Source: Bordetella genomosp. 5
GTDB taxonomy: Bacteria; Pseudomonadota; Gammaproteobacteria; Burkholderiales; Burkholderiaceae_B
DNA: 64,000 nt
Assembly: GCF_002261475.1 (NCBI RefSeq)
Contig: NZ_NEVN01000005.1
Location: 62,001-126,000, forward strand
Reading direction: 5' to 3'
Shown here: positions 36,183 through 59,396 of the stretch, in pieces
How the letters are laid out: every line of letters starts with the position of its first letter
Numbering within the stretch: position 1 is the first letter of the stretch
The notes under the pieces: model-generated
What the model was told of the DNA's origin: nothing
Seen by the model: only the letters and a program-made list of their open reading frames with translations
Databases searched by the model: none
Position numbers and translations under genes: made by a program

Positions 36183-36212
36183 ACCCGCAGGGAGCCGGGC
36201 GCGTGTCCGCGC

Positions 36213-38885
36213 TCAGGCGCCGTGCAGCAGGGCCACGGGCAGCCGGCCCCACAGATCGGCCAGCGTCAGCTGATCCTGGCCATCGTGCGCCGCGATCCGC
36301 GCCGCTGCGGCGTCTCCCGACAGCGCATCGGTCCAGCTCAAGCCGGCCAGGTCCGCGGGCAGACCGATACGCGTATCGGCCAGCCACTGCTTCGTTGCGG
36401 CGTCGTCGGGCGCGGCCAGGCGCGTGGCGCAGCCCCGCGGCACCACCACCAGCATCCAGCGGCCGCCGTGCGCGCGCAGGAACGCGATGACGTGGTCCGC
36501 GCCGGGGCCGGTCGCCGTCAGGGGCGTGTAGTCGCCCTGCGCGTACAGGGCGGGCCAGTCCTGCCGGCTCGCGAGCGCCGCGCGAATCACGCGCTGCTTC
36601 ACGCTGCCGTCTTCCCAGTCGCCCGCGGCCGGTGCGGTGCCGGCTTGCGCCGGACGCGCCAGCAGCGCCGCGCGTGCGTCGAAATCGACCGGGCGCCGGT
36701 TGTCGGGGTCGACCAGGCTGTAGTCCCAGAGGTCGGTGCCCTGGTATAGATCGGGCACGCCCGGCGTGGTCAGGCGCAGCAAGGTCTGCGCCAGGCTATT
36801 GATGCGGCCGGCGGGCGTGAGTCGGGCGGACAGCGCCGCGGCGCGTTGCATCAGCGGGGCGAGCGGGGCGCCCGGTGCCAGCGCCTCGAGCAACGCGGTG
36901 CACGCGGCCTCGTAGTCGGCGTCCGGATCGGTCCAGCTCGTGCGCTCCTTCGCTTCACGCAGCGACTTCATCCACCATTGCTCCAGCCGCTCGCGCCAGG
37001 CCTGCACGCCTTCGGCGTCGTCGGGGCTCAGGCCGTCGGGCCATGCGCCCACGAGCGTCTGCGCGAGCTGGTAGCGGTCGGCGGGATGGACGCGCGTCGC
37101 GGCGCCGGCATCGGCGACCCAGTCGTGCGCCCATCGCACCCAGTGCTCAGGGTCTTCGGTGAGTACGGCGAGACGTGCGCGCACGTCTTCGCCGCGCTTG
37201 TGATCATGCGTGGCGGTGGCGAGCATCGCCTGCGGATGATGGCTCACGCGCGTGGTACACGCCTCATGGAAGTCGGCCACGGACAGCGCGAAGTGGGTCG
37301 GCTCCGAGCCCACTTCATTGCGCGAGAGCAGCGGCGCGTAGCGGTAGAAAAGCGTGTCTTCGAGCGACTTCGCGGCCAGCGGCGGGGTCAGTTGTTCGAA
37401 GCGTTGCACGGCCTGGGCGCGCAGGCGCGCCTGCGTCTCGGCCTGCGCGCGCTGCCCGTTGGTGGCCTTGCTGGCGGGGGCGCCGCCCGAGAGCCACTGG
37501 TCGATCTGCCTGAGCAAGTCCTGTTGCGCGGGGTCGCCCGCCGACTCGGCCAGCGCCGCCTGCAGGGCCACATCGCAGGCTTGCTGATCCGACGGGCTGC
37601 GGCCGTGCTCGCCGGCATAGCTGCGGTAGCGCGGAAAGTGGCGCAACAGCAGATACTGCGCGCGGCCGATCGCGGCCTCGGTCCAGTCGCGCGTGGCGCG
37701 ATCGCTGCGGGCGATCTCGGCCAGCAGGCGGGTGAGGGTGCGCCGTTCGGCGACGAAATGCCGGCGCAGCATGCGGTCGCGCGCGGCCAGCCACTGTTCC
37801 TCTACGGGGCGGTCGTCGTGGGCGAGCTCCTGCCACAGCGCCTCGAACGGTGCCTGCGCGTCGGGCAGGTGGAGGACGGCCGACACCTGATCCATGAAGT
37901 CGTATCCGGTCGTGCCCTGCACCTGCCAGCTCGCGGGCAGCGGCTCGCCGGCGGCAAGAATCTTTTCGACGACGATATAGGGCTCGACGCTCAGACCCTG
38001 GGCCTGCCGATGGGCGCCGGCATCGCGCAGCGCGGTACGCAGGCGGCGCGCATACGCGCCCGGCTGGGCCAGGCCGTCGATGTGGTCGACGCGCACGCCA
38101 TCGATGAGGCCGGCGCCGTACAGGCGCAGCACGAGCGCATGCACGGCATCGAAGACCTCTTCCTCCTCGACGCGCACGCCCACGAGTTCACTGATCTCGA
38201 AGAAGCGGCGCCAGTTGATCTGGTCGGGCGCGCAACGCCACCACGCCAGGCGGTAATGCTGGGCTTCGAGCAATTCGTGCAGACGGGCGCGGCCGGCCGC
38301 ATCGTCGGGCGCATGGGCGGCCAGCGTGACGTCGGGCAGGGCGTCCGCCGCGAAGGAGCCCTCTGCCACCGGCAGATGCGTGCCGCCCGCGGCGACGGCG
38401 TACCGCGCGGCGCTGGTGTCGAAGACCAGCCGCAGGTCGCCGCTCTCGAGCGCCTGCCCGTAGGGCTGGCCCAGGATGGGCAGCAGGACCTTGCCGCGCA
38501 GCGCGGGGTCCTGCGCATGCCAATCGATATCGAACCAGCGTGCGTGAACGCTCGCGGCGCCATTGGCCAGCACATCCCACCACCAGGCATTGCTGGGATG
38601 CGCCGCCATGTGGTTGGGCACGATGTCGATGATGAGGCCGAGCCCGTGCGTGCGGGCCGTTTCGGCGAGTCGCCGCAGGGCCGAGATGCCGCCCAGATGT
38701 GGACTCACGACGGTGTGATCGACGACGTCGTAGCCGTGCGTCGATCCCTCGCGCGCCTGCGTGATCGGAGAGAGGTACAGGTGGCTCACACCCAGTGCCG
38801 CGTAATACGGAACCTGGTCGCGAGCCTGATCGAGGGTGAAGCCTGCATGCAGCTGCAGGCGGGCGGTGGCGCGCGGGGAACTCAT
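36213..38885 (-). CDS. treY: malto-oligosyltrehalose synthase
   Basis: An 890-residue GH13 enzyme that isomerises the reducing-end alpha-1,4 bond of maltodextrin to alpha,alpha-1,1, the first step of the TreYZ route. TreY hallmarks are RLQLHAGFTLDQARDQVPYY, GVSHLYLSPITQAREGSTHG and VPNHMAAHPSNAWWWDVL. The nucleophile is Asp267 (GVRVDHIDGL) and the acid Glu307 (IVVEKIL). The start overlaps the malQ stop (ATGA). Last gene of the operon. It works with treZ two genes upstream to release trehalose from glycogen-like glucan. Confidence 0.95.
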   Translation of the reverse strand: MSSPRATARLQLHAGFTLDQARDQVPYYAALGVSHLYLSPITQAREGSTHGYDVVDHTVVSPHLGGISALRRLAETARTHGLGLIIDIVPNHMAAHPSNAWWWDVLANGAASVHARWFDIDWHAQDPALRGKVLLPILGQPYGQALESGDLRLVFDTSAARYAVAAGGTHLPVAEGSFAADALPDVTLAAHAPDDAAGRARLHELLEAQHYRLAWWRCAPDQINWRRFFEISELVGVRVEEEEVFDAVHALVLRLYGAGLIDGVRVDHIDGLAQPGAYARRLRTALRDAGAHRQAQGLSVEPYIVVEKILAAGEPLPASWQVQGTTGYDFMDQVSAVLHLPDAQAPFEALWQELAHDDRPVEEQWLAARDRMLRRHFVAERRTLTRLLAEIARSDRATRDWTEAAIGRAQYLLLRHFPRYRSYAGEHGRSPSDQQACDVALQAALAESAGDPAQQDLLRQIDQWLSGGAPASKATNGQRAQAETQARLRAQAVQRFEQLTPPLAAKSLEDTLFYRYAPLLSRNEVGSEPTHFALSVADFHEACTTRVSHHPQAMLATATHDHKRGEDVRARLAVLTEDPEHWVRWAHDWVADAGAATRVHPADRYQLAQTLVGAWPDGLSPDDAEGVQAWRERLEQWWMKSLREAKERTSWTDPDADYEAACTALLEALAPGAPLAPLMQRAAALSARLTPAGRINSLAQTLLRLTTPGVPDLYQGTDLWDYSLVDPDNRRPVDFDARAALLARPAQAGTAPAAGDWEDGSVKQRVIRAALASRQDWPALYAQGDYTPLTATGPGADHVIAFLRAHGGRWMLVVVPRGCATRLAAPDDAATKQWLADTRIGLPADLAGLSWTDALSGDAAAARIAAHDGQDQLTLADLWGRLPVALLHGA

Positions 38886-41002
38886 TGTGGCTCGCTTTCG
38901 GTAGAGGTGGGTCCGGGTCGTGCAGCGCGCAGCAGGGCCGCGCGGCGTTGCACGGCCGCTTGGTCGAAGGGCGCGGCGAGCCGCGCGGGCAGGCGGCGCC
39001 GCCAATTGGGGTGGCCGCTGACGGTGCCCGGCAGATTGGGCTGTTCGGTCGCGGCGCAGAGGTCTTCCAGCGTCGCGATCATCAGCGGGGCGGGCGTGGC
39101 GGCCACGTGGTCGAGCACGCGCGCCAGCGGGGCGGCGACGGGCGCGGGCCGGCGCGAGGCCGGCGCCAGCGTCTGCCACAGCGCTTCGCGATCCGCCGCG
39201 CGGGCTTCGCGCATACTCGCCTCGGTTTCGTCGGGGCCGAGCAGGTTCAGCTGCACGCGCCAGTCGATGTCGCGTTCGCGCCACCAGCCGCGCACGGTGG
39301 GAAGATCGTGCGTCGTGGTCAGCGCGAGCTTGCGGTCGGACCATTCGCGCGCGGGCAGGAAGGGCGCCGGGCCGTCCTGGGCGGCGCCCCGTTCGAACCA
39401 GAGCACGCTCATGCCGGCCACGCCGGCCGCCTCCAACGCTTCGCCCATACCCTCGGGCACGGTGCCCAGGTCCTCGCCGATGGCCACGGCTTCATGCCGC
39501 CATGCCTCGAGCGCCACCAGCCGCAGCATATCGGCCAGCGGATAGCGCAGGTAAACGCCCTCGGCGGGCACGTTGCCCGGCACCAGCCACAGGCGTGCGA
39601 GGCCGAGGATGTGATCGATGCGCACGCCGCCCGCCGGCTTGAGGCTGGCGCGCAGCAGGTCGATGAAGGGCTGATAGCCCTGCGCGCGCAGCGCGGTCGG
39701 CGAGTAGGCCGACAGGCCCCAGGCCTGGCCGAGCGGGTTGTAGATGTCGGGAGGCGCCCCGATCGAGAGCTGCGCCAGGAAGTCGCCGGGCCGGCTCCAG
39801 GTCTGGCTGCCGCGCGGATCCGCGCCCACGGCCAGGTCGGTGATGAGCCCGACGCGCATGCCCGCGCGGCGCGCCGCCAGCTGCGTCTCGCTCAGGCTGG
39901 CGGAGGTGAGCCACTGCGCGAAGCAATGAAAATCGACGTCGTCCTCGTGACGCAGCGCATAGGCCGCCACGGCGCTGGAGCGGGCGTCGCGCAACGGCTC
40001 CGCCCAGTGCTGCCAGTGCGCCTCGGCCACGCTGCCCACGGCGGTGGTGTGCTCGGCGTGCAGCGACTCGAACACCGCGTGGTCGCGCAAGGCCTGGCCG
40101 CCGGCCGTTCGAAAGCCGGCATAGCGCCGCTTGAGAACGGCGGGCGCGCGGGCAAAGTCGCGATGCAGCTGACGCAGCAGCGCGAAGCGCACGCGCGCGG
40201 CGCGCGGCCAGTCGATCTCGCTGCGGGCATCGATCTGCGCCGCGAGCGCGCGCTCGGACTCGGGCAGGGCCTGCCACGCGCGTTCCACCATGGCGCTGCC
40301 GAGCACGGCCGCGGCATCGGCATAAAGCGGATTGAAAAAGAGCCGGCTCGACGGCGAGTAAGGGCTGTCGTGCGCGGGATGCGCGGCGTAGAGCGCATGG
40401 ACGGGACTGATGGCGACGGCCTGGGCGCCTTGCGCGGCGGCCGCGACGGCCAGTTCGCGCAGCGCGGCGAAGTCGCCGTGGCCGGCGCGGCTGGAGGGGC
40501 GCGCCGGATCGCCGCAACGCAGACCGTAGACCTGTGCGGCCACGCCCCAGGAGCGCGCCGGCAGCGAGGTCGGCGTGGCGGGCGCCACGGCCAGTCGCAC
40601 GCTGTGCGAGCCAATGACCAACTGATGGTAGCCCGGGCGCTGCGGCGCCACGATGCAGGGCCGGCCCTGCGTGTCCAGCTGCAGCACGCCCTGCGCGACC
40701 GAGCCGTTGTCGAGCTGGATCTCGTAGGGGCCGCTAGCCGAACCCGGCAGACCGGCGATCGGGCACGCGGCGCCCGCGTCGGTGACCAGCAGCGCGGGCG
40801 GGGCCTCCTGCTGCGCGCGCAGGTCGGCGAGGCTCTCGCGCGCCTGCTCCAGGCTGGCCGCGGGGAAGCCGAGTGCGTCCAGCACGGTGCGCAGGGTGTC
40901 CGGGCCCACCTGCTGGCCGCGGCCCTGGGCATCGGTCCAGTGCTGCGCCAGCCCGGCGGCCTCGGCCAGTTCGCTCAGGAGGGGATCGGCGCGATGCGTC
41001 AT
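38882..41002 (-). CDS. malQ: 4-alpha-glucanotransferase (amylomaltase)
   Basis: A 706-residue GH77 disproportionating enzyme that transfers maltodextrin units between chains. The catalytic region shows RPGDFLAQLSIGAPPDIYNP, nucleophile Asp463 in GVRIDHILGLARLWLVP and acid Glu510 in AIGEDLGTVPEGM. An N-terminal domain of about 150 residues (TDAQGRGQQVGPDTLRTVLD) is typical of the longer proteobacterial MalQ. ATGA overlaps join it to treZ and treY. It can recycle short maltodextrins left by TreYZ and GlgX back into usable chains. Confidence 0.94.
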   Translation of the reverse strand: MTHRADPLLSELAEAAGLAQHWTDAQGRGQQVGPDTLRTVLDALGFPAASLEQARESLADLRAQQEAPPALLVTDAGAACPIAGLPGSASGPYEIQLDNGSVAQGVLQLDTQGRPCIVAPQRPGYHQLVIGSHSVRLAVAPATPTSLPARSWGVAAQVYGLRCGDPARPSSRAGHGDFAALRELAVAAAAQGAQAVAISPVHALYAAHPAHDSPYSPSSRLFFNPLYADAAAVLGSAMVERAWQALPESERALAAQIDARSEIDWPRAARVRFALLRQLHRDFARAPAVLKRRYAGFRTAGGQALRDHAVFESLHAEHTTAVGSVAEAHWQHWAEPLRDARSSAVAAYALRHEDDVDFHCFAQWLTSASLSETQLAARRAGMRVGLITDLAVGADPRGSQTWSRPGDFLAQLSIGAPPDIYNPLGQAWGLSAYSPTALRAQGYQPFIDLLRASLKPAGGVRIDHILGLARLWLVPGNVPAEGVYLRYPLADMLRLVALEAWRHEAVAIGEDLGTVPEGMGEALEAAGVAGMSVLWFERGAAQDGPAPFLPAREWSDRKLALTTTHDLPTVRGWWRERDIDWRVQLNLLGPDETEASMREARAADREALWQTLAPASRRPAPVAAPLARVLDHVAATPAPLMIATLEDLCAATEQPNLPGTVSGHPNWRRRLPARLAAPFDQAAVQRRAALLRAARPGPTSTESEPQ

Positions 41003-42819
41003 GCGGCCTCGTCGGGAGCGGTCAGGAGCGCGATGGTGCAGGCGGGCGCCAGCACGCCATCGCTCAAGGCGTCGAGCGCGCCATCACGGCTCTCGAAGCG
41101 CGTTCCGGTGTCGATGCCGGCGAGCTGTTGACGCAGCCCGGCGGGCAGCACGGCTTCGGCCTCGCCCAGGTTGGCCAGCAACAGCAGCGTGCTGCCGTCA
41201 CCGAGCCGCCAGCTGGCGTACACGGCGGCGGGGCCCAGCGGCTGAGCATCGACGGCGCGGGCACCCACCAGGCGCGGCGTGACCCACTCGGCACGTCGCT
41301 GCAGCAGCAAGGTGTAATAGTCGATCCACGCGGTCGCGCGCACGTCCGGGATGGCTTCGCCGGGCGCCGGCAGCAGTTCGGGCTGGCTCGCGATGAAGGT
41401 CGACGCCGCATTGGGATCCGGCAGGGTGGCGCTGTCGTGATCGCGCAGGAAGCTCGCGAACTCGCGTTGACGGCCCTCGCGCACGGCCTGGGCCAGCGCG
41501 GGATCGGGATGGCTGGTGAAGTACTGGAACGGCACCTGCGAACCGGTTTCCTCGCCCATGAACAGCAGCGGGATTTGCGGCGCGAGCAGTTGCAGCGCGA
41601 CCGCCGCGCGCAGTCGTTCCGGGTCGTCGACCAGCGCCTGCAGGCGGTCGCCGAGTGCGCGGTTGCCGGTCTGATCATGATTCTGCAGGAACAGCACGAA
41701 CGCCGTGGGCGGCAGTGCGCCGCTGGGCTCGCCGCGCGGCACGCCGCCGCGGTGCGCCGACGCCTGGCCCTGGTAGACGAAGCCTTCGCGCAGGCAGCGC
41801 GCCAGCAGCGTGGCCGGTTCCTCGTTGTAGTCGCCGTAGTAGCCGGCGGACTCGCCGGTCAACAGGCGATGCAGCACGTGGTGGCCGTCGTCGTTCCATT
41901 GCGCGTCGTACGCGTTCTGCAGCAGATGGGCGCGGTTGTCGTCGTTCTCGAGCACCAGATGCAGATGGCGGCCATCGCCGATTTCGGCGCGCAAGGTGGC
42001 GGCGAGCTCCACGAGCCATTCGTCGCTGGCGATGGCGTGCACGGCGTCCAGCCGCAGGCCATCGAAGCGATATTCCTTGAGCCAGTGCAGCGCGCTCTCG
42101 GCGAAGAACTGCCGCACCGCGGTCTGGCTGAAATCGATGGCGGAGCCCCACGGCGTGGAGGCATCGGCCGTGAAGAACGGACCCGCATACAACGGGAGAT
42201 AGTTGCCGTCGGGCCCGAAGTGGTTGTAGACCACATCCAGCATCACCGACACGCCCAGGCCATGGGCGGTGTCGATCAGCGCCTTCAGTTCGTCGGGCGT
42301 GCCATAGGCCGTGTCCGGCGCGTAGGGCAACACGCCGTCGTAGCCCCAATTGCGCGGGCCGGGGAAGTCGGCGATCGGCATCAGCTCGAGCACGGTGATG
42401 CCCAGCGCGGCCAGCGCGGGCAGCCGCGCGGCAAGACCGGCGTAGCCGCCGGCCAGGCCGGGATGGGCTTCGTAGATGACGGACTCGTGCCAGGGGCGGC
42501 CACGCCATTCGGTGTGTTGCCAGGCATAGCTGTCGGGCGCGACGACGACGCTGGGGTCGTGCACATCGCCGTCCTGCAGGCGCGACGCGGGATCCGGTAC
42601 CACCGTGTCGTCGTCGATGCGGTAACGGTAGCGGGCGCCCGGCCCGCAATCGACCACGGTCTCGGCGTAGCCGTCGGCGTCAGGCACCAGCGGAATCGGC
42701 GCGCGGCCGTCGATCTCGAGGGCCAGGCCGGGCGGGGCGCTGGGCGCCCACAGGCGGAAGCGGGTGCGTCCGTCGGGGAGCACCCAGGCGCCAAAGGCGG
42801 GGAAACGAGCCTGAATCAT
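40999..42819 (-). CDS. treZ: malto-oligosyltrehalose trehalohydrolase
   Basis: A 606-residue GH13 enzyme that cuts free trehalose from maltooligosyl-trehalose made by TreY. An N-terminal CBM48/E-set domain (FRLWAPSAPPGLALEIDG) precedes the barrel. Nucleophile Asp258 lies in [17 protein letters not shown] and the acid Glu291 in LHLVLENDDNRAHLL. LFMGEETGSQVPFQYFTSHP is typical of TreZ. Start 42819 overlaps the glgX stop (ATGA). Standing between glgX and malQ, it couples debranching to trehalose release. Confidence 0.95.
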   Translation of the reverse strand: MIQARFPAFGAWVLPDGRTRFRLWAPSAPPGLALEIDGRAPIPLVPDADGYAETVVDCGPGARYRYRIDDDTVVPDPASRLQDGDVHDPSVVVAPDSYAWQHTEWRGRPWHESVIYEAHPGLAGGYAGLAARLPALAALGITVLELMPIADFPGPRNWGYDGVLPYAPDTAYGTPDELKALIDTAHGLGVSVMLDVVYNHFGPDGNYLPLYAGPFFTADASTPWGSAIDFSQTAVRQFFAESALHWLKEYRFDGLRLDAVHAIASDEWLVELAATLRAEIGDGRHLHLVLENDDNRAHLLQNAYDAQWNDDGHHVLHRLLTGESAGYYGDYNEEPATLLARCLREGFVYQGQASAHRGGVPRGEPSGALPPTAFVLFLQNHDQTGNRALGDRLQALVDDPERLRAAVALQLLAPQIPLLFMGEETGSQVPFQYFTSHPDPALAQAVREGRQREFASFLRDHDSATLPDPNAASTFIASQPELLPAPGEAIPDVRATAWIDYYTLLLQRRAEWVTPRLVGARAVDAQPLGPAAVYASWRLGDGSTLLLLANLGEAEAVLPAGLRQQLAGIDTGTRFESRDGALDALSDGVLAPACTIALLTAPDEAA

Positions 42820-45059
42820 GGGGACACCTGTGCTTCGGGTTGCGCGGCGGGCTGATCGGCGCCGCCATCGTCCGGGCGCGGTTCGCCCGGCGCGTCGGGC
42901 TCGGGCGATCCGGCCTCCTGTTTTTTTGCGGGGGCGGCGTCGCTCGCCGCCGGCACCCGCACGCACAGCACGCGCAGCGCGTGCGCGCCGACCGCAATGG
43001 TGGCTTCGCCATGCGGGCCGGGCGCGGCATCTGGCGCGGCGCTGTCCAGGGCGCTTTCCCACGCCAGTTGCGGCTGGGGCAGCGTGACCTCGGCATCGTC
43101 GTCACCGGCGTTCATGATGAGCAGCGTCACGTCGACGGAGCCGTCTTCGCAGCGGAAGGCGCGCCGCAGTTGCAGCACGCGGTCTTCGGCGTTCTCCCAG
43201 GCCGGCTGGTTCATGTGCTGGCCACCGGCATCGAACCAGGTGACGGCGTTCACGCCGGGATGCAGTTCCTCGTCGGCGTTGCCGAAGCGCGCGGCGCGCA
43301 GGCTCGGGTGCTCGCGGCGCAGCGCCGCCACGCGGCCGACGTAGGCCGTCAGCGACCGGCCCTCGGGCGAGGCGGCCTGGTTCCAGTCCAGCCACGAGAG
43401 CGGGTTGTCCTGGCAATAGGCGTTGTTGTTGCCGTCCTGGCTGTTGCCGAACTCATCGCCCGCCAGCAGCATGGGCGTGCCGTCGGCCAGCAACACGCTC
43501 GACAGCAAGGCACGCTGCACGCGGGCGCGCGTGGCCAGCACGTCGGCGTTGTCGGTCGGGCCTTCTTCGCCCCAGTTGCGGCTGTAGTTCTCGCTGTGAC
43601 CGTCGCGCCCTTCCTCGCCATTGGCTTCGTTGTGGCGCTCGTTGTAGCTCACGATGTCCGCGGTCGTGAAGCCATCGTGGGCGGCCACGAAGTTCACGCT
43701 GGCCCAGGGCCGGCGGTGGCGCCGGTCGAAGACGTCGCGCGAGCCGACAAGCCGTGCCGCGAGATCGCCGCGCTGGCCGGGGTCGCCGCGCCAGTAACGC
43801 CGCACGCCATCGCGGAAGCGGTCGTTCCATTCGGCGAAGCGGGGCGGGTGGTTGCCGAGCTGGTAGCCGTCGGGGCCGATGTCCCAGGGTTCGGAAATCA
43901 GTTTCACGCCGTTCAGCACGGGATCCTGCAGCACCGCGTCGAAGAAGCCCGAGCCCGGGTCGAAGCCCGTGCCTTCGCGGCCGAGCGTCGAGCCCAGGTC
44001 GAAGCGGAACCCGTCGACCTGGTACGACTGCACCCAGTGGCGCAGCGAATCGGTGATCATCTGCAGCACGCGCGGGTGCGACACGTTGACCGTGTTGCCG
44101 ACGCCCGTGTCGTTGATGTAGTAGCGCTCTTCGCCGGGCATCAGGCGGTAATAGCTGGCGTTGTCCAGACCGCGCCACGACAGGGTCGGGCCGAGTTCGC
44201 TGCCTTCGCAGGTGTGGTTGTAGACCACGTCGAGAATGACTTCGATGCCGGCCGCGTGCAGCCGGCGGATCGCCTGGCGCAGTTCGTTCGGGCCCTGCTG
44301 CGGCACGTAGGCGGGCTCCGGCGCGAAGAACGCCAGCGTGCTGTAGCCCCAGTAGTTGCGCAGCCCGCGTTCGGTCAGGAAACGTTCCTGCAGGAAGGCG
44401 TGGACCGGCAGCAGCTCGATCGCGGTCGCGCCGATGCGATGCAGGTGATCGATGAAGCGGGGATCGCCGAGGGCGGTGGCGGTGCCGCGCATGGGCTGGC
44501 GCAGATCGTCGCGCTGCATCGACACGCCGCGCACATGCGCCTCGTACACCACGGTGTCGTTCCAGTTGGTGCGCGGCGGGCGCGTATCGCCCCAGTTGAA
44601 GACGCCGTCTTCGGTCACGACGGCCTTGGGCATGGCCGGCGCGCTGTCGCGGCGGTCCATGCTCAGGTCGGCGCGCGCGTGGTTCAGGCGATAGCCGAAC
44701 AGCGCATCGGACCACTGCAAGGGCGCCGACAACTGGCGCGCGTAAGGGTCGAGCAGCAGCTTGTGCGGGTTGAAGCGGTGACCGTTGCGCGGATCGTAGG
44801 GACCATAAGCGCGATAGCCATAAAGCAGGCCGGGCTGGGCGTCGGGCAGGTAGCCGTGCCAGACCTCGTCGGTGCACTCGGGCAGGGTGAAGCGCTTGAG
44901 CTCCTTGCGTCCGCGTGCATCGAAAATGCAAAGCTCGATGCGGGTGGCGTTGGCCGAGAAAACCGCGAAATTCACGCCCAGGCCGTCGCTGGTGGCGCCG
45001 AGCGGGTAGGGACGGCCTGGCAGCAGGCGGGGCAGACCGAGATAATCCATGGGAGTCAT
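42816..45059 (-). CDS. glgX: glycogen debranching enzyme GlgX
   Basis: A 747-residue GH13 isoamylase-type enzyme that removes short alpha-1,6 branches. It has an N-terminal CBM48 ([20 protein letters not shown]), nucleophile Asp354 in [15 protein letters not shown], acid Glu390 in LISEPWDIG, and [20 protein letters not shown] near the active site. The C-terminus ends in an acidic Ala/Pro-rich tail of about 40 residues not needed for the fold. The ATG overlaps the glgB stop (ATGA). An internal ATG three codons in is possible. Confidence 0.94.
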
Positions 45060-47257
45060 TCCTTGAACGACAGGTAGATCGTGGAGAGGCCGGGGAGGGT
45101 GAGGGAAAGCGATTGCGAATGACCATGGGCCGGCGTCTCGGCGGTCTGTGCCGCGCCGCCGTTGCCTTCACCATGGCCGCCATAGACACTGGCGTCGGTG
45201 TTCAGGCATTCGGTCCAGCGGCCGGCGCGAGGCACGCCGATGCGATACTCGCGGCGCGTGACCGGCGTGAGGTTGCTCACCGCGAGCACCCAGTCCTGCC
45301 CGTCGGTGCGCAGCATGGCGAGCACGCTGTTGTCGGCGTCGTCGCCGATGGCCCACGCGAAGCCCGAGGGCTCGCAGTCGCGCGCCGAGAGCGCGGGCAG
45401 GTCGCGGTAGAGACGGTTGAGGTCGCCCACCAGACGCTGCACGCCGCGATGCCGCGCCTGGTCGAGCAGGTGCCACGGCAGCGGTGCATCGTGGTTCCAC
45501 TCCTCGAACTGCGCCAGCTCGCCGCCCATGAACAGCAGCTTCTTGCCGGGATGGGCCCACATGTAGCCGAAGTACGCGCGCAGATTGGCCAGCCGGGTCT
45601 CGTCGTCGCCCGGCATCTTGCGCACGAGCGAGCCCTTGCCGTGAACCACTTCATCGTGCGAGAGCGGCAGGACGAAGTGCTCGGAGTAGGCGTAGACCAT
45701 GCCGAAGGTCATGTCGTGGTGATGATGCTTGCGATGCACCGGGTCGTGCGCCATGTAGCGCAGCGTGTCGTGCATCCAGCCCATGTTCCACTTGTAATGG
45801 AAGCCCAGACCGCCTTGCGCGACCGGTGCCGTCACGCCAGGCCACGCGGTGGACTCCTCGGCCACCGAGATGGCGCCGGGGCAGTGCTCGCGCAGCGTCT
45901 CGTTCAGGCTCTGCAGGAAGGCCACGGACTCGAGATTCTCGCGGCCACCGTGCACGTTGGGAATCCACTCTCCGGCCTTGCGGCTGTAATCGCGATACAG
46001 CATCGAGGCCACCGCGTCGACGCGCAGGCCGTCGATGTGAAACTGCTGCAGCCAGTGCATGGCGCTGGCGATCATGAAGGCCCGCACTTCGGTGCGGCCC
46101 AGGTTGTAGACCAGCGTGTGCCAATCGGGGTGATAGCCTTCGCGCGGATCTTCGTATTCGTACAGCGCCGTGCCGTCGAAGCGGCCCAGGCCATGGGCGT
46201 CGTCGGGGAAGTGCGCCGGCACCCAGTCGAGGATCACGCCGATGCCCGCGGCATGGCAGCGGTCGACGAAGCGCGCGAACTCGGCGGGCGTGCCGTAGCG
46301 CGCGCTCGGCGCGAACATCGAGAGCGGCTGGTAGCCCCAGGAGCCGCCGAACGGATGCTCCATGATCGGCATGAGCTCGATGTGGGTGAAGCCCAGCGAT
46401 TGCACGTAGTCGGGCAGCCGGTCCGCGAGGCGGGCCCACACGCTGTCGCCGTCGGTCGTGCCGGGCGCGGGCAACCACGACGTGGGTTGCAGCTCGTAGA
46501 TCGAAATGGGCGCCTGCGGCGATTGCGCCGCGGCGCGCCGGTCCATCCAGGCCTGGTCCGACCAGGTGTAGGTGGCGGGCTCGGCCACCACCGACGCGGT
46601 GGCGGGCGGCAGCTCGGTCTGGCGCGCGCAGGGGTCGGCCTTCATCAGCGTCTGGCCCGCGCGGGTGGTGATGGCGAACTTGTAGCGTTCGCCCGGCCCG
46701 ATGGCAGGGACGAAAATTTCCCAGACGCCGGCGGCATGGCGCAGCCGCATGGCATGCCGGCGCGTGTCCCAGCCGTTGAAGTCGCCCACGACCGCGACGC
46801 GGTCGGCATTGGGCGCCCAGACCGCGAATCGCACGCCGTCGATCTCGTGCACCGTCATCGGCGTGGCGCCGAGCACCTGGCCCGCATGCCACCACGAGCC
46901 CTGCGCCAGGCCATGCACGGTGTCGTCGTCGAGCAGCGGCCCGAAGGCATACGTGTCGGCGGTTTCGATCTCGGTCTGCTGGCCGGCGCTGCCCGGCCAG
47001 ACGATGGCGAGCCGGTACGAGCCGGGCTCGCCCGCGCGCGCGAAATCGACCGGCGCGCTGAACACGCCGGCCGTGGTTTCTTCGAGCGCGACGCGTTCGC
47101 CGTCCGGGGAGAGCGCCGTGACCGAGACGGCGCCGGGCAGCAGCGCGCGCACCTCGCCGGCGTGCGGGCCCAGCACCGCATAGGGATCGGCGTGACGGCC
47201 CGCGACCAGCGCGGCGAGGTCCGTGTCGGAGACGGGGGTACGGCGGGAAGACATCAC
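45056..47257 (-). CDS. glgB: 1,4-alpha-glucan branching enzyme
   Basis: A 733-residue GH13 enzyme that creates alpha-1,6 branch points. Two N-terminal CBM48-type modules come first ([11 protein letters not shown] near residue 24 and [20 protein letters not shown] near 144). The catalytic barrel carries nucleophile Asp414 in [19 protein letters not shown], the acid in [13 protein letters not shown] (A-E-E at 466-468) and [16 protein letters not shown]. Both ends overlap neighbours by 4 bp (treS stop and glgX start). It branches glucan made by GlgE or GlgA. Confidence 0.96.
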
Positions 47258-50200: not shown

Positions 50201-50574
50201 GCGCGCTGGAACCACGGGTGCTGATCGGAGGTGTGGTTCACCACCAGCTCGGTGATCACACGCAGCCCCCGGGCGTGCGCGGCGCGGATGAGGCGGCGCA
50301 CGTCGGCGACGTTGCCGTAATCCTGATGCACCCCGCGGTAATCCGCGATGTCGTAACCATCGTCGCGGCGCGGCGACGGGTAGAACGGCAACAGCCACAG
50401 CGTGTTCACGCCCAGGTCGGCGATGTAGTCCAGCTTGGACAACAGGCCGGCAAAATCGCCCACGCCGTCATTGTTGGCGTCGAAGAACGACTTCACGTGC
50501 AATTGATAGATGATGGCGTCCTTGTACCAGAGACCATCGTCCTGCTGAGCGGTGTTCGCGCCGGGTGTATCCAT
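47254..50574 (-). CDS. treS: trehalose synthase fused to maltokinase (TreS-Pep2)
   Basis: A 1106-residue bifunctional enzyme. Residues 1 to about 550 are TreS, a GH13 mutase interconverting trehalose and maltose: [20 protein letters not shown], nucleophile Asp212 ([13 protein letters not shown]), acid Glu254 ([10 protein letters not shown]), Asp320 (FLRNHDE). Residues from about 600 are an ATP-dependent maltokinase of the Pep2/Mak type, with [18 protein letters not shown], catalytic HGDLHLGQ (His944, Asp946) and metal-binding DFEGEP (Asp963). Product: maltose 1-phosphate for GlgE. The gene starts 14 bp after glgE with a GAAGG site and overlaps glgB by 4 bp. Such fusions are common in proteobacteria; in mycobacteria the two parts are separate partners. 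Confidence 0.95.
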
Positions 50575-50588
50575 GTCTGCTGCCTTCG

Positions 50589-53500
50589 TTAGTCCTGCGC
50601 CGAGAGGCGCCAGATGCCGTAGGGTTGGGTGGGGTCCAGCCGCAGGGTGACCCGCGGTCCGGTCCAGCGCTGCCGCGCGTCCTCGATCTGATCGTGCGCC
50701 GCCAGCGAGCCGTGCTCGGGCAGCCCGAACAGATCCAGCGGCAGCGCGATGCTGGCCTGCTGGGCCTGTGACGGATCGAGGTTGATGGCGACGAGCACCA
50801 CGTTGCCGCGCCGGGGCGTGTGCCGGCAGAACGCCAGCACCTGCCCGTTGTCGCAGGGCAGCGAGACGTAGCCGGTGTGGCTCTGCAATGCGGCGTTGGC
50901 ACGGCGGATTTCATTCAACCGCGTGATCTCGCGGCGGATGTGACCGGGCGCATCCCAATCGCGCCAGCGCAGCTCGTATTTCTCGGAGTCGAGATACTCT
51001 TCCTTGCCGGGCAGGGGCGCGCTCTCGCAGATCTCGAAGCCGCTGTACATGCCCCACAGCCCCGACCCCGTGCAGGCCAGCGCCGCGCGGATCAGGAATC
51101 CGGGACGACCCGAGGTCTGCAGGAAGTAGGGATTGATGTCCGGCGTGTTCACGAAGAAGTGCGGCCGGAAGTACTGCGCGGCAGGGGTATTGGAGAGCTC
51201 GTCGAAATACGCGTCGAGTTCGGTGCGGTGGTTGCGCCAGGTGAAGTAGGTATAGGACTGCGTGAATCCGACCTTGGCCAGGCGGCGCATCATCTTGGGC
51301 CGCGTGAACGCTTCCGACAGAAAGATCGCGTCGGGCGCCTGTGCGTGCACTTCGGCGATCAGCCACTCCCAGAACGGCAGCGGCTTGGTATGCGGGTTGT
51401 CGACACGGAAGGTCCGCACGCCTTGCTCGACCCAGAACAGCACCACGTCGCGCAGCGCGCGCCACAGCGCCATGCGGCGCGCCTGGCGGGCACCGCCATA
51501 GAAGTTCACGTTGACGATGTCTTCGTACTTCTTGGGCGGATTCTCGGCGTGGCGCATCGAGCCATCGGCACGCCAGGAGAACCAGTCGGGGTGGTCGCGC
51601 AGCCAGGGATGATCGGGCGAGCACTGAATCGCGAAATCCAGCGCGAGCTCCAGATCGTGCGCGGCCGCGGCCTTGACCAGCGCGAGGAAATCCTCGAGGG
51701 TGCCGAGCGCGGGTTCGATGGCATCGTGTCCGCCGGCCTCGCTGCCGATGGCATACGGACTGCCGACATCGTCGGGACCGGCGCGCAGGCTGTTGTTGCG
51801 GCCTTTGCGGTTGCGCGTGCCGATGGGGTGAATGGGCGGGAAGTACAACACGTCGAAGCCCATGGCCCGCACGGCCGGCAGGCGCGCGATCACGTCGCGC
51901 AAGGTGCCGTGCTGGCCCGGCTCGCTGCCCTGCGAACGCGGGAACAGCTCGTACCAGTTGGCGTGCCGCGCCGCGGCGCGATCCACCCACAGCGGCCACG
52001 GCCCGGCGCTCGCCGGAAACGCGCGCGTCTGCACCGCGGCCATGGCCTCGCTCAGCTCGGCGCTCAGCAAGGCATCGATGCCCGCCGCGTCCAGCCACTG
52101 GTCGCTCTGCGCCATCGCATCGCGCGGCTGGGCCGGCATGGCGGCGAAACGCGTCAGCGTTGCCTTCAACACCGGATACTCGGCGGCCTCGGGCCGCGTC
52201 GCCGCGGCGCGCAGCAGCGCGAGTCCTTCGATCACTTCGAGCGCGACCGGCACGCCGGCGCGATGCTTGGCGGACAGCTCATGCGTATACGTGCCCCAGC
52301 CGTCGCGCCAGGCCTGCACGACGAACTCGTGGGCGCCGATGCGTTCCGGACGGAATACGGCGCGCCAGCGATCGTTCGTGCCAGCCACCAGCGGCACGCG
52401 TTGCCACTGCGCGTCGTCCACGGCGCGCCAGAGCACTTCGGCGGCCAGCACGTCATGGCCGTCCATGAAGATGTCGGCTTCCACCGCCACGGCATCATGC
52501 ACCACGCACTTGGCCGCGTAGCGCCCGTTCTCGACGGAAGGGGTGACGGTCTCGATGACAATCCGCGGCGCGTCCGACGTGGCCCGGGGCGCGCCCGGCA
52601 CGGGGGTGCCGACGGGGGGCAGGGGATCGAGCCGGAGCCTGACGCAGTCGCCGGGCGCGACCGCTTCTTCGCGCCAGCTTTTTTGAGACGTGCCGACGCG
52701 GCCGATGCGGCCCGGCGAGACGATGCCCGTCAGCAGATCCAGGTCGGGCAGCGCGGGCGCGTCGTCGCGCGGGTTGATTGCCAACAGGTCGAGACCGCGC
52801 GAGAGCAGCGTGGCGCGGCCGTCGACACCGACGGCCAGGCGCAGCGGCGCGCGCGAATGGGGCTCGCTGGCCCACTGGTTCACTTCTTTCAGCAAGGTGG
52901 CGGGCGCCGTGGCCGATTGGGGGTAGATCCAGGCGTCGCCGGCATATGCGGCCGTCCACAGCGCGCGGCGCCAGCGCGCGTCGCCCGTGTCCGGCGTCGC
53001 GCCGCCTGCGTGCGGGGGCACGGCCGGCAGGTAGGCGATGGGCGCCAGCGCGCTCAGGCGCGCATGTTCCTCGGCGAGCCAGTCGGTGCGGTAGTTCCAC
53101 CATGGCAGCGAGCCGTGCACCAGATCGAATCCCGCGCCGTGCAGGCGGTCGAGCTGGCCCGGCGTCAGGCCGGCGCCCTGCGCCTGCAGCACCACCGTCG
53201 GGCGCTTCTCGCGCAAGGCGGTGAAAAGTTGCCGCCAGTCGTCGGCCGCGACGCGTTCGGGGCGCTGAAAGCGCAGGCCGTCGACGCCGGCGTCCAGCCA
53301 CGCCGCAAGGCGGTCGCGCCAGTCCGTCATCGCGGCGTCCGTCATGCGGGCACCGGCCAACAGCGCCACGTCGCGGGCCTCGCCGGGCAGGCGGGGATCG
53401 CGCGCGCTCTGCTCACCCGACTGCACATAGGCCTCGGGAAGCGCCTTCGCATACGGGCCGCGCAGGCTGGCGCGCGTGAGGTCCAGATCGAGCCAGAGCG

Positions 53501-53756
53501 CCAGCTTCTGCGCGCGGCATGCCTCGACCCACTTGCCTATCGTGGCGGCGGTGCTGCCGCCGTCCGGCATGCGATCGGGGTCCAGCCACGCGCCGTTGAG
53601 CGCATCGCGGCTGCCGGGTGCGGCAATCAGAATCGCGTTGAAGCCCAGGGCGCGCCACTCGCCGAGCAGTCGCTCGTCAAGGAAGGGACCGTCGGCCAAT
53701 ACAACGCGCCAGGAGCCGGCGGGCTCCTGGCGGGGACGTTGAGCAGGGCGCGCCAT
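50589..53756 (-). CDS. glgE: alpha-1,4-glucan:maltose-1-phosphate maltosyltransferase GlgE with extra N-terminal region
   Basis: A 1055-residue protein; ordinary GlgE has about 660-700 residues. The canonical enzyme begins near residue 396 (APRIVIETVTPSVENGRYAA) and holds nucleophile Asp786 (FRVDNPHTKPLPFWEW), acid Glu815 (IFLSEAFTRPKMM) and YFPPIHPIGTRNRKGRNNSL. It transfers maltosyl units from maltose 1-phosphate to alpha-glucan. Residues 1-390 look like an additional (beta/alpha)8 barrel plus beta domain, with Gln in place of the usual GH13 acids (GLRFQRPERV at 160-169, VVLQAQ at 188-193). The AAGGAGG ribosome site overlaps the glgA stop. Similar long forms exist in other beta-proteobacteria, to my knowledge. 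Confidence 0.94.
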   Translation of the reverse strand: MARPAQRPRQEPAGSWRVVLADGPFLDERLLGEWRALGFNAILIAAPGSRDALNGAWLDPDRMPDGGSTAATIGKWVEACRAQKLALWLDLDLTRASLRGPYAKALPEAYVQSGEQSARDPRLPGEARDVALLAGARMTDAAMTDWRDRLAAWLDAGVDGLRFQRPERVAADDWRQLFTALREKRPTVVLQAQGAGLTPGQLDRLHGAGFDLVHGSLPWWNYRTDWLAEEHARLSALAPIAYLPAVPPHAGGATPDTGDARWRRALWTAAYAGDAWIYPQSATAPATLLKEVNQWASEPHSRAPLRLAVGVDGRATLLSRGLDLLAINPRDDAPALPDLDLLTGIVSPGRIGRVGTSQKSWREEAVAPGDCVRLRLDPLPPVGTPVPGAPRATSDAPRIVIETVTPSVENGRYAAKCVVHDAVAVEADIFMDGHDVLAAEVLWRAVDDAQWQRVPLVAGTNDRWRAVFRPERIGAHEFVVQAWRDGWGTYTHELSAKHRAGVPVALEVIEGLALLRAAATRPEAAEYPVLKATLTRFAAMPAQPRDAMAQSDQWLDAAGIDALLSAELSEAMAAVQTRAFPASAGPWPLWVDRAAARHANWYELFPRSQGSEPGQHGTLRDVIARLPAVRAMGFDVLYFPPIHPIGTRNRKGRNNSLRAGPDDVGSPYAIGSEAGGHDAIEPALGTLEDFLALVKAAAAHDLELALDFAIQCSPDHPWLRDHPDWFSWRADGSMRHAENPPKKYEDIVNVNFYGGARQARRMALWRALRDVVLFWVEQGVRTFRVDNPHTKPLPFWEWLIAEVHAQAPDAIFLSEAFTRPKMMRRLAKVGFTQSYTYFTWRNHRTELDAYFDELSNTPAAQYFRPHFFVNTPDINPYFLQTSGRPGFLIRAALACTGSGLWGMYSGFEICESAPLPGKEEYLDSEKYELRWRDWDAPGHIRREITRLNEIRRANAALQSHTGYVSLPCDNGQVLAFCRHTPRRGNVVLVAINLDPSQAQQASIALPLDLFGLPEHGSLAAHDQIEDARQRWTGPRVTLRLDPTQPYGIWRLSAQD

Positions 53757-53765
53757 CGCGCCTCC

Positions 53766-55334
53766 TTACAGCGCGGCAGGCGCGGGGGGCGGCGTGCCAG
53801 GTTGGGCGGGACGCTGCACGGTGTACGGCCAGGCCGACACGCGGCGAGCGCGTTGAGGTTGGGCCGACGCGCCCGTGGTGCTGGTCAGGCTGTCGAACAA
53901 TTGCAGGTAGGGCTGCACGGCGCTGTCCCAGCCGAAATCGGCGGTCATGGCGTTGCGTTGCATGGCCTGCCAGATCGGTTCCTGGCGGCGCAGGTGCAGC
54001 GCGCGGCCGATGGCCGACAGCATGTCTTCGTCGCCTTCGCCGTCGAACAGCAGGCCGTTGGCCGTGCGCATCGCGGCGATCGGCGCGCGGGGACCCGGAT
54101 CATGGATGGTGTCGGCCATGCCGCCCACGCGCGAACCGATCGGCAGCGTGCCGTAGCGCATCGCGTACAGCGGCGTGAGGCCGAAGGGCTCGAAACGGCT
54201 GCCATGCAGCAGGATGTCGGCGCCGGCGTGCAGGTGGTGGGCCGTGGCCTCGTCGTAGCCGATGCGCACCGCGCAACGGTCGGGCCAGGCGCGGGCCATG
54301 TCACGCATCGCCTCTTCGAGATGGCGTTCGCCCTGGCCCAGAATGAAGACTTGCACGTCGTCGTGAGCCTGCAGAATGCGCGGCAGGACGCGGGCCGCCA
54401 CATCGGCCATCTTCTGGCCGGTGAGACGGCTACCCATCGCGATCAGCGTGGCGTCGGGCTTGACCGGCAGACCCAGCTCCTGTTGCAGCGCGGCCTTGCA
54501 ATGCGCCTTGTTGCGGGCATCGCGCGCGCTGTAGCGATAGACGCCGAGGTGGCGGTCGTTGGCCGGATTCCACAGCGTGTCGTCGATACCGTTGGCGATC
54601 GGCACCAGATCGGCCACGCGCTGGCGCAGCAGGCCCTCGAGACCGCAGCCGAAAGCGGGGGTCAGGATCTCACGGGAGTAGGTGTGGCTCACGGTGGTGA
54701 TCACATCGGCGTAGCGCAGGCCCGCCTTCATGAAATTGAGCTTGCCCCAGGCCTCGATGCCCTGTTCGCCCAGCATGTCGGCGGGGATCGCGAGCACATT
54801 GGCCAGTTCCGTCGGGAACTGCCCCTGGAACGCCAGGTTGTGGATCGTGAGCACGCTTTTGGTGGTGCAGCCGCGGGCGCGCATCAGCGCCGGGACCAGC
54901 GCCGCGTGCCAGTCGTGCGCATGGACGACGTCGGGGCGCGGCACGCCGGGCTGACCCTGGGCAATGCGGGCGGCGGCGTGCGCCAGCGCGGCGAAACGCA
55001 GCGCGTTATCGGGGTAGTCGCCTTTTTCGTCGGCGTAGAGGCCCGAGCGATCGTAGAGGTCATCATTCTCGAGCAGCAGCACGTTGAAGCCGCCTTGCGA
55101 GCACGAGCCGCCGATCAGGCGGGCCGGGCCACCGGGCAGGCCACGCAGTTCGGCCACTTCGCGCACACGCGAAAGCTGGTCACGTGTGCCGCGATAGGCG
55201 GGCATCAGGACGGTAACGTGCGCTCCGCCCGCATCGAGGGCGCGCGCCATACCGGTCACCGCATCCCCCAGTCCGCCGCTCTTGGCCAACGGGTAAGCCT
55301 CGGACGCCACAATGAGAATTCTGCTGGTTGCCAT
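53766..55334 (-). CDS. glgA: glycogen synthase (ADP-glucose dependent, GT5)
   Basis: A 522-residue GT5 glycosyltransferase. The donor-binding KSGGLGD motif is at residues 18-24 (ILIVASEAYPLAKSGGLGDA), with HAHDWHAALVPALMRA, LTIHNLAFQGQFP and the C-terminal GSRFEPFGLTPLYAMRYGTLPIGSRVGGM typical of GlgA. It elongates alpha-1,4-glucan from ADP-glucose; actinobacterial relatives (GlgM) instead make maltose 1-phosphate from ADP-glucose and glucose 1-phosphate, but those are GT4. First gene of the operon. ATG 55334 has an AGGAG site. No glgC is present here, so ADP-glucose must come from elsewhere. About 30 residues after the catalytic core form a variable tail. Confidence 0.95.
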   Translation of the reverse strand: MATSRILIVASEAYPLAKSGGLGDAVTGMARALDAGGAHVTVLMPAYRGTRDQLSRVREVAELRGLPGGPARLIGGSCSQGGFNVLLLENDDLYDRSGLYADEKGDYPDNALRFAALAHAAARIAQGQPGVPRPDVVHAHDWHAALVPALMRARGCTTKSVLTIHNLAFQGQFPTELANVLAIPADMLGEQGIEAWGKLNFMKAGLRYADVITTVSHTYSREILTPAFGCGLEGLLRQRVADLVPIANGIDDTLWNPANDRHLGVYRYSARDARNKAHCKAALQQELGLPVKPDATLIAMGSRLTGQKMADVAARVLPRILQAHDDVQVFILGQGERHLEEAMRDMARAWPDRCAVRIGYDEATAHHLHAGADILLHGSRFEPFGLTPLYAMRYGTLPIGSRVGGMADTIHDPGPRAPIAAMRTANGLLFDGEGDEDMLSAIGRALHLRRQEPIWQAMQRNAMTADFGWDSAVQPYLQLFDSLTSTTGASAQPQRARRVSAWPYTVQRPAQPGTPPPAPAAL

Positions 55335-55501
55335 GCTTGCTCCTGTGTGGGCGGGGCAGGTCTGCGATATGCGACCCGTCTTCCCCTGGCAATACGCCAT
55401 GTAGCAAGGGCCGTGCCCGGGACGCGGCAGTGCAGCAAAAATGCCCGCGGGCACGCGCCTTGCGACGGGATGGGCTCAGTTCAACCACCAGGAGTCACCC
55501 C

Positions 55502-55867: not shown

Positions 55868-55889
55868 TCTTCTGACATCGGTAAAAAAG

Positions 55890-55925
55890 TTGCCCGCGCA
55901 ACCTTTTGGTTGCGCGGGCAATTTT
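55890..55925 (+). terminator. intrinsic terminator
   Basis: TTGCCCGCGCAACC / GGTTGCGCGGGCAA, 14 perfect pairs with a TTTT loop, then TTTTCTTTT. Follows the small exported protein. Confidence 0.93.
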
Positions 55926-56012
55926 CTTTTGGGGCCTGCGCCGCCGTTGGCCGAGCCGTGGGCTCAAGGCCGGCAGGGCCCACGTGGCCGCCGCGGTCGG
56001 GCAAGAGAACTG

Positions 56013-58100: not shown

Positions 58101-59090
58101 TCACTCGTCGGCCGGAATGTCGTAGGCCGCGAGCCGGTTGTAGAGCGTTTTGACACTGATGCCGAGCGCCTGCGCGGCGCGCTGCTTGTCGTCGTCGCAT
58201 TGCGCGAGCGTGGCGAGGATCAGCCGGCGCTGGGCGTCGGCCAGATTGGTGCCCACGGCGATGTCGAGCTGGTCTTCGTCGCCGGCGCCCGCCGCCATCG
58301 GGCGCGGCTTGGGCGCGAGGGCGTCCCCGATTTCGTTGTCGGCCATGATGTAGGCACGTTGCACGATGTTCTTGAGCTCGCGCACATTGCCGGGCCAGTC
58401 ATAGCGCTGCAGCGCCTCGATCATGGCGGGCGCGAAGCGCTTGTCGCTGCGGTTGCTCTTGTTCAGATCATCGAGCATGCGCTGCGCCAGCACCGGGATG
58501 TCTTCGAGGCGCTCACGCAGGGGCGGCACCCGCAGCGGCACGACCAGCAGCCGGTGCAGGAAGTCTTCGCGCAGACGGCCCTGCGCCACGGCCTCGAGCG
58601 GGTCGCGGTTGCTCGCACAGATCAGCCGCACGTTGGCACGCAGCAGGTCGGTGCCGCCGACGCGCTGATAGGTGCCGGTCTCGAGGACGCGCAGGAAGTG
58701 CACCTGCATGTCGGTCGACATTTCGGTGACTTCGTCGAGGAACAGGGTGCCGCCGCTGGCGTGTTCGAAATAGCCGGCGTTCTGGGCCAGCGCGCCCGTG
58801 AAACTGCCTTTTTCGTGACCGAACAGGACGGCGTGCGCCAGGCTGCGGCTGATGGCGCCGCAGTTGACAGCCACGAAGGGCCGGTCGGCGCGCGGGCTGC
58901 CGGCATGAATGGCGCGCGCAACCAGCTCTTTACCGGCGCCGCTCTCGCCCACGATGAACACCGACGCATCGGTGGCCGCGGCGCGGTCGATCTGGCGGGT
59001 GAGCTGACGCATGACATCGCTGATACCCAGTATGTCCAGGTCGGGCGCTTTCCGGCTGGAGGATGGGGGCGTGGTGCTGCGGGCGGGCAT
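58101..59090 (-). CDS. sigma-54-dependent activator without receiver domain
   Basis: A 329-residue AAA+ enhancer-binding protein. The Walker [14 protein letters not shown] is at residues 48-60, the sigma-54 contact loop GSFTGA at 95-100 (Ser in place of the usual Ala), [12 protein letters not shown] (Walker B) and [17 protein letters not shown]. The C-terminal Fis-type helix-turn-helix is [19 protein letters not shown]. Only about 20 residues precede the AAA+ domain, so no sensory or receiver domain exists and it may be constitutive or protein-regulated, like PspF. Start 59090 has GAGG upstream. Divergent from the following regulator; rpoN lies 313 bp downstream. Confidence 0.92.
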
Positions 59091-59396
59091 GCATATACCT
59101 CTGCAATGACAGAACGCACATGATAGCGGCAGGTCACGCCCGCAGGGGGGGAAATGCGACGAGATGCAAATACCCGTATCATCCGGCGCGCGTCCGTATC
59201 GAATGTTTACGTATCCAACCCCTGGTGGTCGCATTTCTTCTAATGTCCACGCTATGCTCAAGGGTGCGGGTTCGGAAGCGATGATCGTGCGGGGCACAAA
59301 AGGCCCCAGCGCGCTTTCGAACGGGGAATGGCGCTACCGCGCCGACACCGCGTAGCGGTCACGACACTACACATATAAGCCAGAAGGAAAGCTTTC
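59091..59396. other. divergent intergenic region between two sigma-54 activators
   Basis: 306 bp containing the promoters of both regulators. It is slightly more AT-rich than its neighbours (for example GAATGTTTACGTATCC). I could not identify a convincing -24/-12 or -35/-10 pair. Confidence 0.4.

Follow-up and report, generated by a model that had tools for sequence, protein, structure and literature searches.

A trehalose-glucan operon of Bordetella genomosp. 5 and its GlgE with a dead amylase half

The GlgE pathway has been studied mainly in mycobacteria, streptomycetes, and Pseudomonas aeruginosa PAO1. Here, we analyzed an eight-gene block, glgA-glgE-treS/pep2-glgB-glgX-treZ-malQ-treY, in Bordetella genomosp. 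5, contained in a 64,000-nucleotide stretch of contig NZ_NEVN01000005.1 (RefSeq assembly GCF_002261475.1, positions 62,001 to 126,000, forward strand), which we call the window and whose own numbering is used below. The operon itself belongs to a known kind; what sets it apart is a long GlgE with a dead amylase half.

The closest described network is that of PAO1. Passages of the PAO1 study (PMC8084333) report that GlgA uses UDP-glucose, that TreY/TreZ produce trehalose, that TreS/Pep2 convert it to maltose 1-phosphate, and that GlgE and GlgB build branched glucan from the latter. Loss of glgA abolishes all downstream metabolites; PAO1 has glgP but neither glgC nor otsA/otsB, and its pathway genes are split between two operons. 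In these passages the authors raise a futile-cycle problem, which they leave open, and propose that GlgX requires the prior action of GlgP. The window has the same eight enzymes, the same TreS-Pep2 fusion, and the same lack of glgC and otsA, but PAO1 distributes the genes over two operons and an orphan glgP, whereas the window holds one block and its genome no glgP. We think it likely that this block is a stress-protection operon with a sigma-54 switch, a UDP-glucose-fed GlgA/GlgE network, and a GlgE fused to a dead amylase.

An amylase-like domain without catalytic residues

By its domain content, the C-terminal part of the window GlgE (residues 396-1055) is GlgE proper, a predicted maltose 1-phosphate user. 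Residues 396-1043 align almost end to end with Streptomyces GlgE, the stretches RVDNPHTKP, LSEAF, and NTPDI included, and D786, E815, and D873, which we take to be the catalytic Asp, Glu, and Asp of the GH13_3 barrel, are invariant in eight relatives. Both GlgE domain cut-offs are exceeded (Table 1), and the chain is longer than the 660-720 amino acids of a stand-alone enzyme: about 390 N-terminal residues go beyond the length of the solved chains. The initial annotation named glgE correctly and passed over this half.

In the structural model, the N-terminal extension forms a complete GH13 fold, a (beta/alpha)8 barrel with a C domain. At the columns of the catalytic Asp, Glu, and Asp, this domain (N-domain) carries Gln, Gln, and Pro, with Gln at the nucleophile and acid columns alike, and it thus lacks the residues of a catalytic GH13 enzyme. 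We compared 67 fused N-domains (the window, 64 of 80 named loci, and genomes G158 and G285) with six separate open reading frames (ORFs) of the same domain. A frame above 850 amino acids was counted as fused; this includes L116 and L126, for which BLAST with the window N-domain returned no separate hit, and the truncated L101. None of the 67 fused copies has the general acid Glu, which is replaced by Trp in 48, and the region I His is likewise absent from all 67 (Arg in 48, a gap in 4). At the region IV column, Asp occurs in six fused copies and the HD pair in none. All four catalytic-region residues are kept in 6/6 separate ORFs, and a seventh, G573, keeps the motifs by eye. Four fused copies outside the 67 (G138, G098, G119, and G255) also lack the acid Glu by eye.

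The ratio of nonsynonymous to synonymous substitution rates (dN/dS) in 15 pairs of relatives was 0.02-0.41 for the N-domain and 0.03-0.24 for the enzyme part; the N-domain is under purifying selection. This bears on the reading that the block is an ordinary conserved GlgE-pathway operon, known from comparative genomics, and that the extra length of GlgE is a poorly conserved, functionless tail. A similar gene order in many Burkholderiales and the network described in the PAO1 passages (PMC8084333) agree with it, as do the lower conservation of the N-domain relative to the enzyme half and its absence from the sampled Pseudomonas and Halomonadaceae loci. We nevertheless regard a functionless tail as unlikely, given an extension that models as a complete fold, its presence in 64 of 80 loci from three proteobacterial classes (a share biased upward), and the purifying selection.

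A second possibility is that the N-domain is not dead and catalyzes a different reaction or relies on different residues, such as in a transferase step feeding GlgE. The nucleophile-position Asp kept in 15/67 fused copies would fit, as would the conserved Trp, Asp, and Arg positions (W146, W174, R182, D211, W219, W220, and W226 are invariant in eight N-domain sequences). The acid Glu is lost from every fused copy, however, the HD pair of region IV is found in none, and we know of no GH13 mechanism that works without the acid, which makes a live domain very improbable.

The dead domain would most likely serve GlgE as a platform for glucan docking or for regulation. Several observations weigh against our reading: the 15 copies that keep the nucleophile Asp, the Gln of the window where Trp is the common replacement of Glu, an N-domain dN/dS above that of the C-terminal part in 13/15 pairs, and the presence of a fused GlgE in only 8 of the 38 genomes with GlgE in an evenly drawn order sample (300 genomes; GlgE matches at E<=1e-130, counted by hand).

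The named loci are the best 80 matches to a fused query, so that 64/80 is biased upward and is not a frequency; the fused form among them spans alpha-, beta-, and gammaproteobacteria, with a Cupriavidus necator record (L086) as one of its carriers. The other 16 loci, with frames below 850 amino acids, belong to Pseudomonas and relatives, Halomonadaceae, and Methylopila or, in two cases, are cut by contig ends. An N-domain profile (A2), searched in 398 genomes of the phylum at E<=1e-57, matched 17 places, 16 frames above 1000 amino acids and one separate ORF; the sequences behind the profile include the window itself and several genomes that it later matched. Three weaker matches (G565, G322, and G620) are also fused. 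Among 25 plasmid records listed, the annotated ones name such proteins maltosyltransferase or 'maltotransferase domain-containing protein'.

Seven separate GH13 ORFs of 428-513 amino acids were found. Profile and alignment identify them as the same domain as the N-domain, and the three tested against Pfam gave GH13-type matches. Unlike the fused window domain, which has lost its catalytic residues, they are genes of their own with these residues intact. Four of the seven (G062, G073, G026, and G573, the last with glgE itself in two frames) lie directly upstream of glgE, as a fusion would require; the ORF and glgE are on different contigs in G078, G033, and G273. Because these separate-gene relatives keep the catalytic residues, the catalytic loss probably accompanied the fusion.

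In a tree built from the catalytic parts of 100 GlgEs, a group of seven unfused GlgEs falls outside, and six of its members come from genomes that have a separate ORF; most of the remainder is fused, with the Pseudomonas and Halomonas group nested inside, next to a fused Sinobacteraceae form. This topology, with a midpoint root only and weak deep branches (SH-aLRT, Shimodaira-Hasegawa-like approximate likelihood ratio test, 80-88), favors a single fusion with a later loss in Pseudomonas and Halomonas. Unfused G072 and G116 have no resolved place inside the fused part. Six changes were counted on the tree, two of which stem from L071 and L082; these were not accepted as unfused GlgEs and were treated as cut off, as only 3 and 83 bases separate the start of their matches from a contig end. 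The long frame of G026 was rejected as a fused GlgE, two separate ORFs being present there, and the extension of about 200 amino acids in G058 fitted the N-domain poorly by eye and was excluded from the counts.

A tentative history, which we hold to be possible and no better than that, is that GlgE is a two-part machine in many proteobacteria: an amylase gene beside glgE was fused to it and lost catalysis, and its former active site turned into one that holds glucan, often with Trp for Glu. The part seems to have been lost in Pseudomonas, which serves as the main proteobacterial model; this would explain why it went unnoticed. We found no description of the dead amylase half among open-licence papers, judged mostly from listings.

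Layout of the block and its carbon supply

All eight genes lie on the minus strand as open, in-frame genes, from the glgA start at 55334 to the treY stop at 36213, and each scores above the curated threshold for its family. The initial annotation had the genes, their order, and their strand right. The intergenic distances are 9, 14, and then five times -4 bp, so that a short gap or a start/stop overlap is found at all seven junctions, as expected of an operon. Four of the overlaps are ATGA; the fifth, between treS/pep2 and glgB, had also been given as ATGA and is GTGA if glgB starts at GTG, an ATG lying 3 bp further on. Strong internal promoters or terminators would have spoken against a single unit, as the initial annotation had pointed out. 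A sigma-70-type scan of 36000-55700 returned a single promoter-like site, on the opposite strand, and nine terminator-like sites compare with 6.3 +/- 2.6 in shuffled sequences, leaving the block without a clear split. Downstream, treY stands tail-to-tail with a hybrid sensor kinase gene (33141-36182, plus strand).

Other Burkholderiales show a similar order, in support of a single unit. Among the 80 named loci, glgA-glgE-treS/pep2-glgB-glgX-treZ, followed by a partial malQ if the locus extends that far, is the order found in Achromobacter, Bordetella, Parapusillimonas, Verticiella, and Pusillimonas; as far as treZ, it is shared by Schauerella, Ralstonia, Oxalicibacterium, and four Caballeronia-type loci (L110-L113), the last with longer gaps. 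The core glgE-treS/pep2-glgB is more widespread than the longer order. In G273 (L063, 2744-10200), two treS/pep2 fusion genes follow glgE in tandem. In L081 (Bosea) and L137 (an uncultured Halomonas), malQ and treY form one open frame, and both window proteins match PRK14507, an NCBIfam model of malQ-treY as one.

The view that translational coupling produces the enzymes in fixed stoichiometry was not supported, because overlapping starts and stops permit coupling and leave the ratios unfixed. The glgE start has the lowest predicted folding energy of the eight starts (-49.9 versus -17.7 to -29.8 kcal/mol). An 11-bp hairpin lies within the first codons of glgE (53707-53732, minus strand), and the predicted fold, which also spans the ribosome site and the start, would suit coupling to glgA translation.

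The host genome (5.2 Mb in 13 contigs, 99.99% complete) gave no glgC match above cut-off (best 35 bits versus 424.9), no PF00343 (glgP) match, and no match to the otsA family; otsB was not searched for. The initial annotation had noted that glgC and glgP were missing from the block and had called for a genome search including otsAB; the absence of both extends to the whole genome in profile searches. It had derived the ADP-glucose for GlgA from an unlinked gene, unless the cell relies mainly on the GlgE route. The best glgC match is galU (TIGR01099, 370 bits > 326.8), and four weaker ones reached 24-31 bits, with the frames picked for two of them giving no family. An unlinked glgC as source of ADP-glucose was therefore rejected and is very unlikely, and the pathway here is not the classical GlgC-GlgA one. 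Since galU is present and no glgC passes the cut-off, UDP-glucose, the GalU product, is probably the GlgA donor. The same profiles scored above cut-off in some of 14 control genomes (glgC in 7, glgP in 12, otsA in 5, trehalase in 3, glucokinase in 4).

The absence of glgC goes together with the long GlgE in the order sample: glgC was found in 2/8 genomes with a long GlgE and 28/30 with another GlgE (Fisher p = 0.00025, uncorrected for kinship), glgP in 4/8 and 17/30, respectively.

No glgC and no otsA leave internal trehalose dependent on GlgA alone. This could be taken to mean that GlgA and GlgE are alternative rather than serial suppliers, with a minor GlgA output and outside trehalose feeding TreS/Pep2-GlgE. 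Against this, the unit begins with glgA, which gives the single PF08323 match of the genome, and the PAO1 passages report that glgA loss abolishes all downstream metabolites (PMC8084333); we consider alternative supply quite improbable.

In the serial scheme that we prefer, GlgA would turn UDP-glucose into linear alpha-1,4-glucan, which TreY and TreZ would convert to trehalose and TreS/Pep2 would pass on as maltose 1-phosphate; GlgE with GlgB would then form branched glucan, and GlgX and MalQ would return chains to TreY. The trehalose-glucan cycle of the initial annotation is supported, the same enzymes having been shown to work in this way in PAO1 according to those passages (PMC8084333), and its closure has to be qualified to few recognized exits. 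An E. coli-like exit of trehalose through trehalase or glucokinase was not found, as neither PF01204 nor PF02685 matched anywhere in the genome. Together with the missing glgP, this suggests that carbon circulates with few recognized exits and that the pool would be a stress solute and polymer reserve more than an energy store. Both negatives have limits that count against this picture: the trehalase search with PF01204 took in neither GH15 and GH65 nor any other hydrolases and phosphorylases of trehalose or maltose, and the glucokinase search with PF02685 did not take in ROK glucose kinases. All seven PF00128 matches of the genome lie inside the block.

A candidate sigma-54 switch ahead of glgA

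The initial annotation overlooked a sigma-54 (-24/-12) promoter motif before glgA, which matches 11/12 positions with the GG/GC spacing of such promoters and is conserved. In 18 glgA-first loci (the window, 15 loci, and L066 and L069; some are near relatives and not independent), the best site upstream of glgA scores 11/12 in 12 loci, 10 in two, and 9 in four; random 380-nt segments reach at least 11 in 21/4000 and at least 10 in 133/4000. The exact core GGCAC-N5-TTGC occurs in 15/18 best sites versus 334/20000 random segments, which include real sites. Among 64 loci treated as glgE-first, L066 and L069 counted with them though glgA is really first there, seven reach 11: six Paraburkholderia sites and one Cupriavidus site within a frame. 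From the position and conservation of the motif, on which the case rests because it is not enriched in the window, a sigma-54 polymerase probably turns the operon on from one promoter before glgA.

Sigma-54 control as such is not new. Passages of a P. fluorescens study (PMC8202526) report that homologous genes are RpoN-dependent, and cite P. aeruginosa; a transposon screen in P. syringae suggests, in the passages seen of PMC8982409, that the NtrC-family regulator CbrB activates glgA. Our literature search, mostly by listings, returned no description of the conserved glgA promoter motif in Burkholderiales.

Several points speak against sigma-54 control. The motif is unenriched in the window overall (12 found versus 13.9 expected), the best site of 4/18 glgA-first loci reaches only 9/12, and rpoN or activator genes lie near the cluster in four relatives only (activator homologues in L066, L072, L090, and G158, rpoN in L072 and L090; the loci reach about 8 kb upstream). 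In the P. fluorescens passages, NaCl resistance was unchanged on rpoN loss (PMC8202526), and the text on a metabolome test that came after the P. syringae cbrB screen opens 'No significant difference was observed' (PMC8982409). Sigma-70 or a stress sigma factor might instead account for transcription, with an incidental sigma-54 motif; the missing enrichment would agree, as would the link of Pseudomonas trehalose synthesis to AlgU and ppGpp in passages of PMC8084333. Yet the sole sigma-70-like match of the scanned region is on the other strand, a similar site at >=10/12 precedes glgA in 14/18 loci, and homologous genes are reported to depend on RpoN in P. fluorescens (PMC8202526), and we doubt that the motif is incidental.

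The window carries further sigma-54-related features (Table 1). Inverted repeats before glgA did not stand out as an activator site, except for a pair that is the two sigma-54 motifs. The second of these, with its own core, faces a small divergent gene (55502-55867, plus strand) for a 121-amino acid, proline-rich protein with a signal-like N terminus. Sites with one mismatch also lie about 120 nt ahead of the hybrid sensor kinase gene (33002-33017, plus strand) and just upstream of rpoN (57845-57860, minus strand), the latter suggesting possible self-regulation. Just downstream of rpoN (56035-56267), a 78-nt GC-rich unit occurs in three tandem copies (100%, 88%, and 63% to the first), and a strong two-way hairpin (55883-55928) stands between these repeats and glgA. 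A thiamine-pyrophosphate enzyme gene (60984-62762, plus strand) adjoins the NtrC-type regulator.

Table 1. Positions of the block genes, GlgE parts, and sigma-54-related features in the window
Feature	Position	Strand	Remarks
glgA, GT5 glycogen synthase, 522 aa	53766..55334	-	NF001899 621 bits > 459; TIGR02095 518 > 328
glgE, 1055 aa	50589..53756	-	dead GH13 domain N-terminal + GlgE proper
GlgE residues 1-390, pseudo-amylase domain	52587..53756	-	GH13-like fold without catalytic residues
GlgE residues 396-1055, canonical GlgE	50589..52571	-	PF11896 172.7 bits > 25; PF21702 60 > 27
treS/pep2 fusion (trehalose synthase-maltokinase), 1106 aa	47254..50574	-	TIGR02456 926.7 > 678; TIGR02457 494 > 375
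glgB branching enzyme, 733 aa, GTG start	45056..47257	-	TIGR01515 857 > 464
glgX debranching enzyme, 747 aa	42816..45059	-	TIGR02100 1000 > 641
treZ, 606 aa	40999..42819	-	TIGR02402 639 > 539 (query: longer frame to 43062)
malQ, 706 aa	38882..41002	-	TIGR00217 301 > 206; PF02446
treY, 890 aa	36213..38885	-	TIGR02401 969 > 499 (query: longer frame to 39344)
sigma-54 (-24/-12) promoter motif GGGCACGGCCCTTGCT	55403..55418	-	1 mismatch to TGGCACGNNNNTTGCW; 68 nt before glgA ATG
second sigma-54-like motif, divergent, towards small gene at 55502	55449..55464	+	2 mismatches; exact core GGCAC-N5-TTGC
rpoN (sigma-54)	56288..57787	-	PF04552, PF04963, PF00309
sigma-54 activator, no sensor domain by Pfam	58101..59297	-	PF00158 207 bits; PF02954
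NtrC-type response regulator, divergent from activator	59397..60782	+	PF00072; PF00158 239.5 bits; PF02954

Comparison with known systems

Non-catalytic relatives of GH13 enzymes include 4F2hc/CD98hc, a partner of amino-acid transporters, and the plant isoamylase ISA2 of a debranching complex; their context is unrelated to that of the window N-domain. The sigma-54 motif is a candidate switch for the trehalose-glucan (futile) cycle. A genome without glgC, glgP, PF01204, and PF02685 matches is a natural setting in which to ask whether a glycogen-like glucan serves stress survival or energy storage. Criblamydiaceae and Waddliaceae resemble the window in having the GlgE pathway where glgC and glgP were lost (passages of PMC7935935; the loss is summarized in PMC11046441), but their glgA is fused to glgB, and the passages seen of PMC7935935 do not mention an N-terminal GlgE domain.

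Actinobacterial GlgE, as in the Streptomyces and Mycobacterium structures, keeps the catalytic Asp, Glu, and Asp, as does the window protein, in solved chains of 663-723 amino acids, none of which covers window residues 1-390. The Pseudomonadaceae GlgE of eight sampled loci is likewise unfused and 663-687 amino acids long, compared with 1055 in the window. A conserved dead amylase domain on the GlgE of many alpha- and beta- and some gammaproteobacteria would represent a regulatory or polymer-handling layer that is invisible in the mycobacterial, streptomycete, and PAO1 models.

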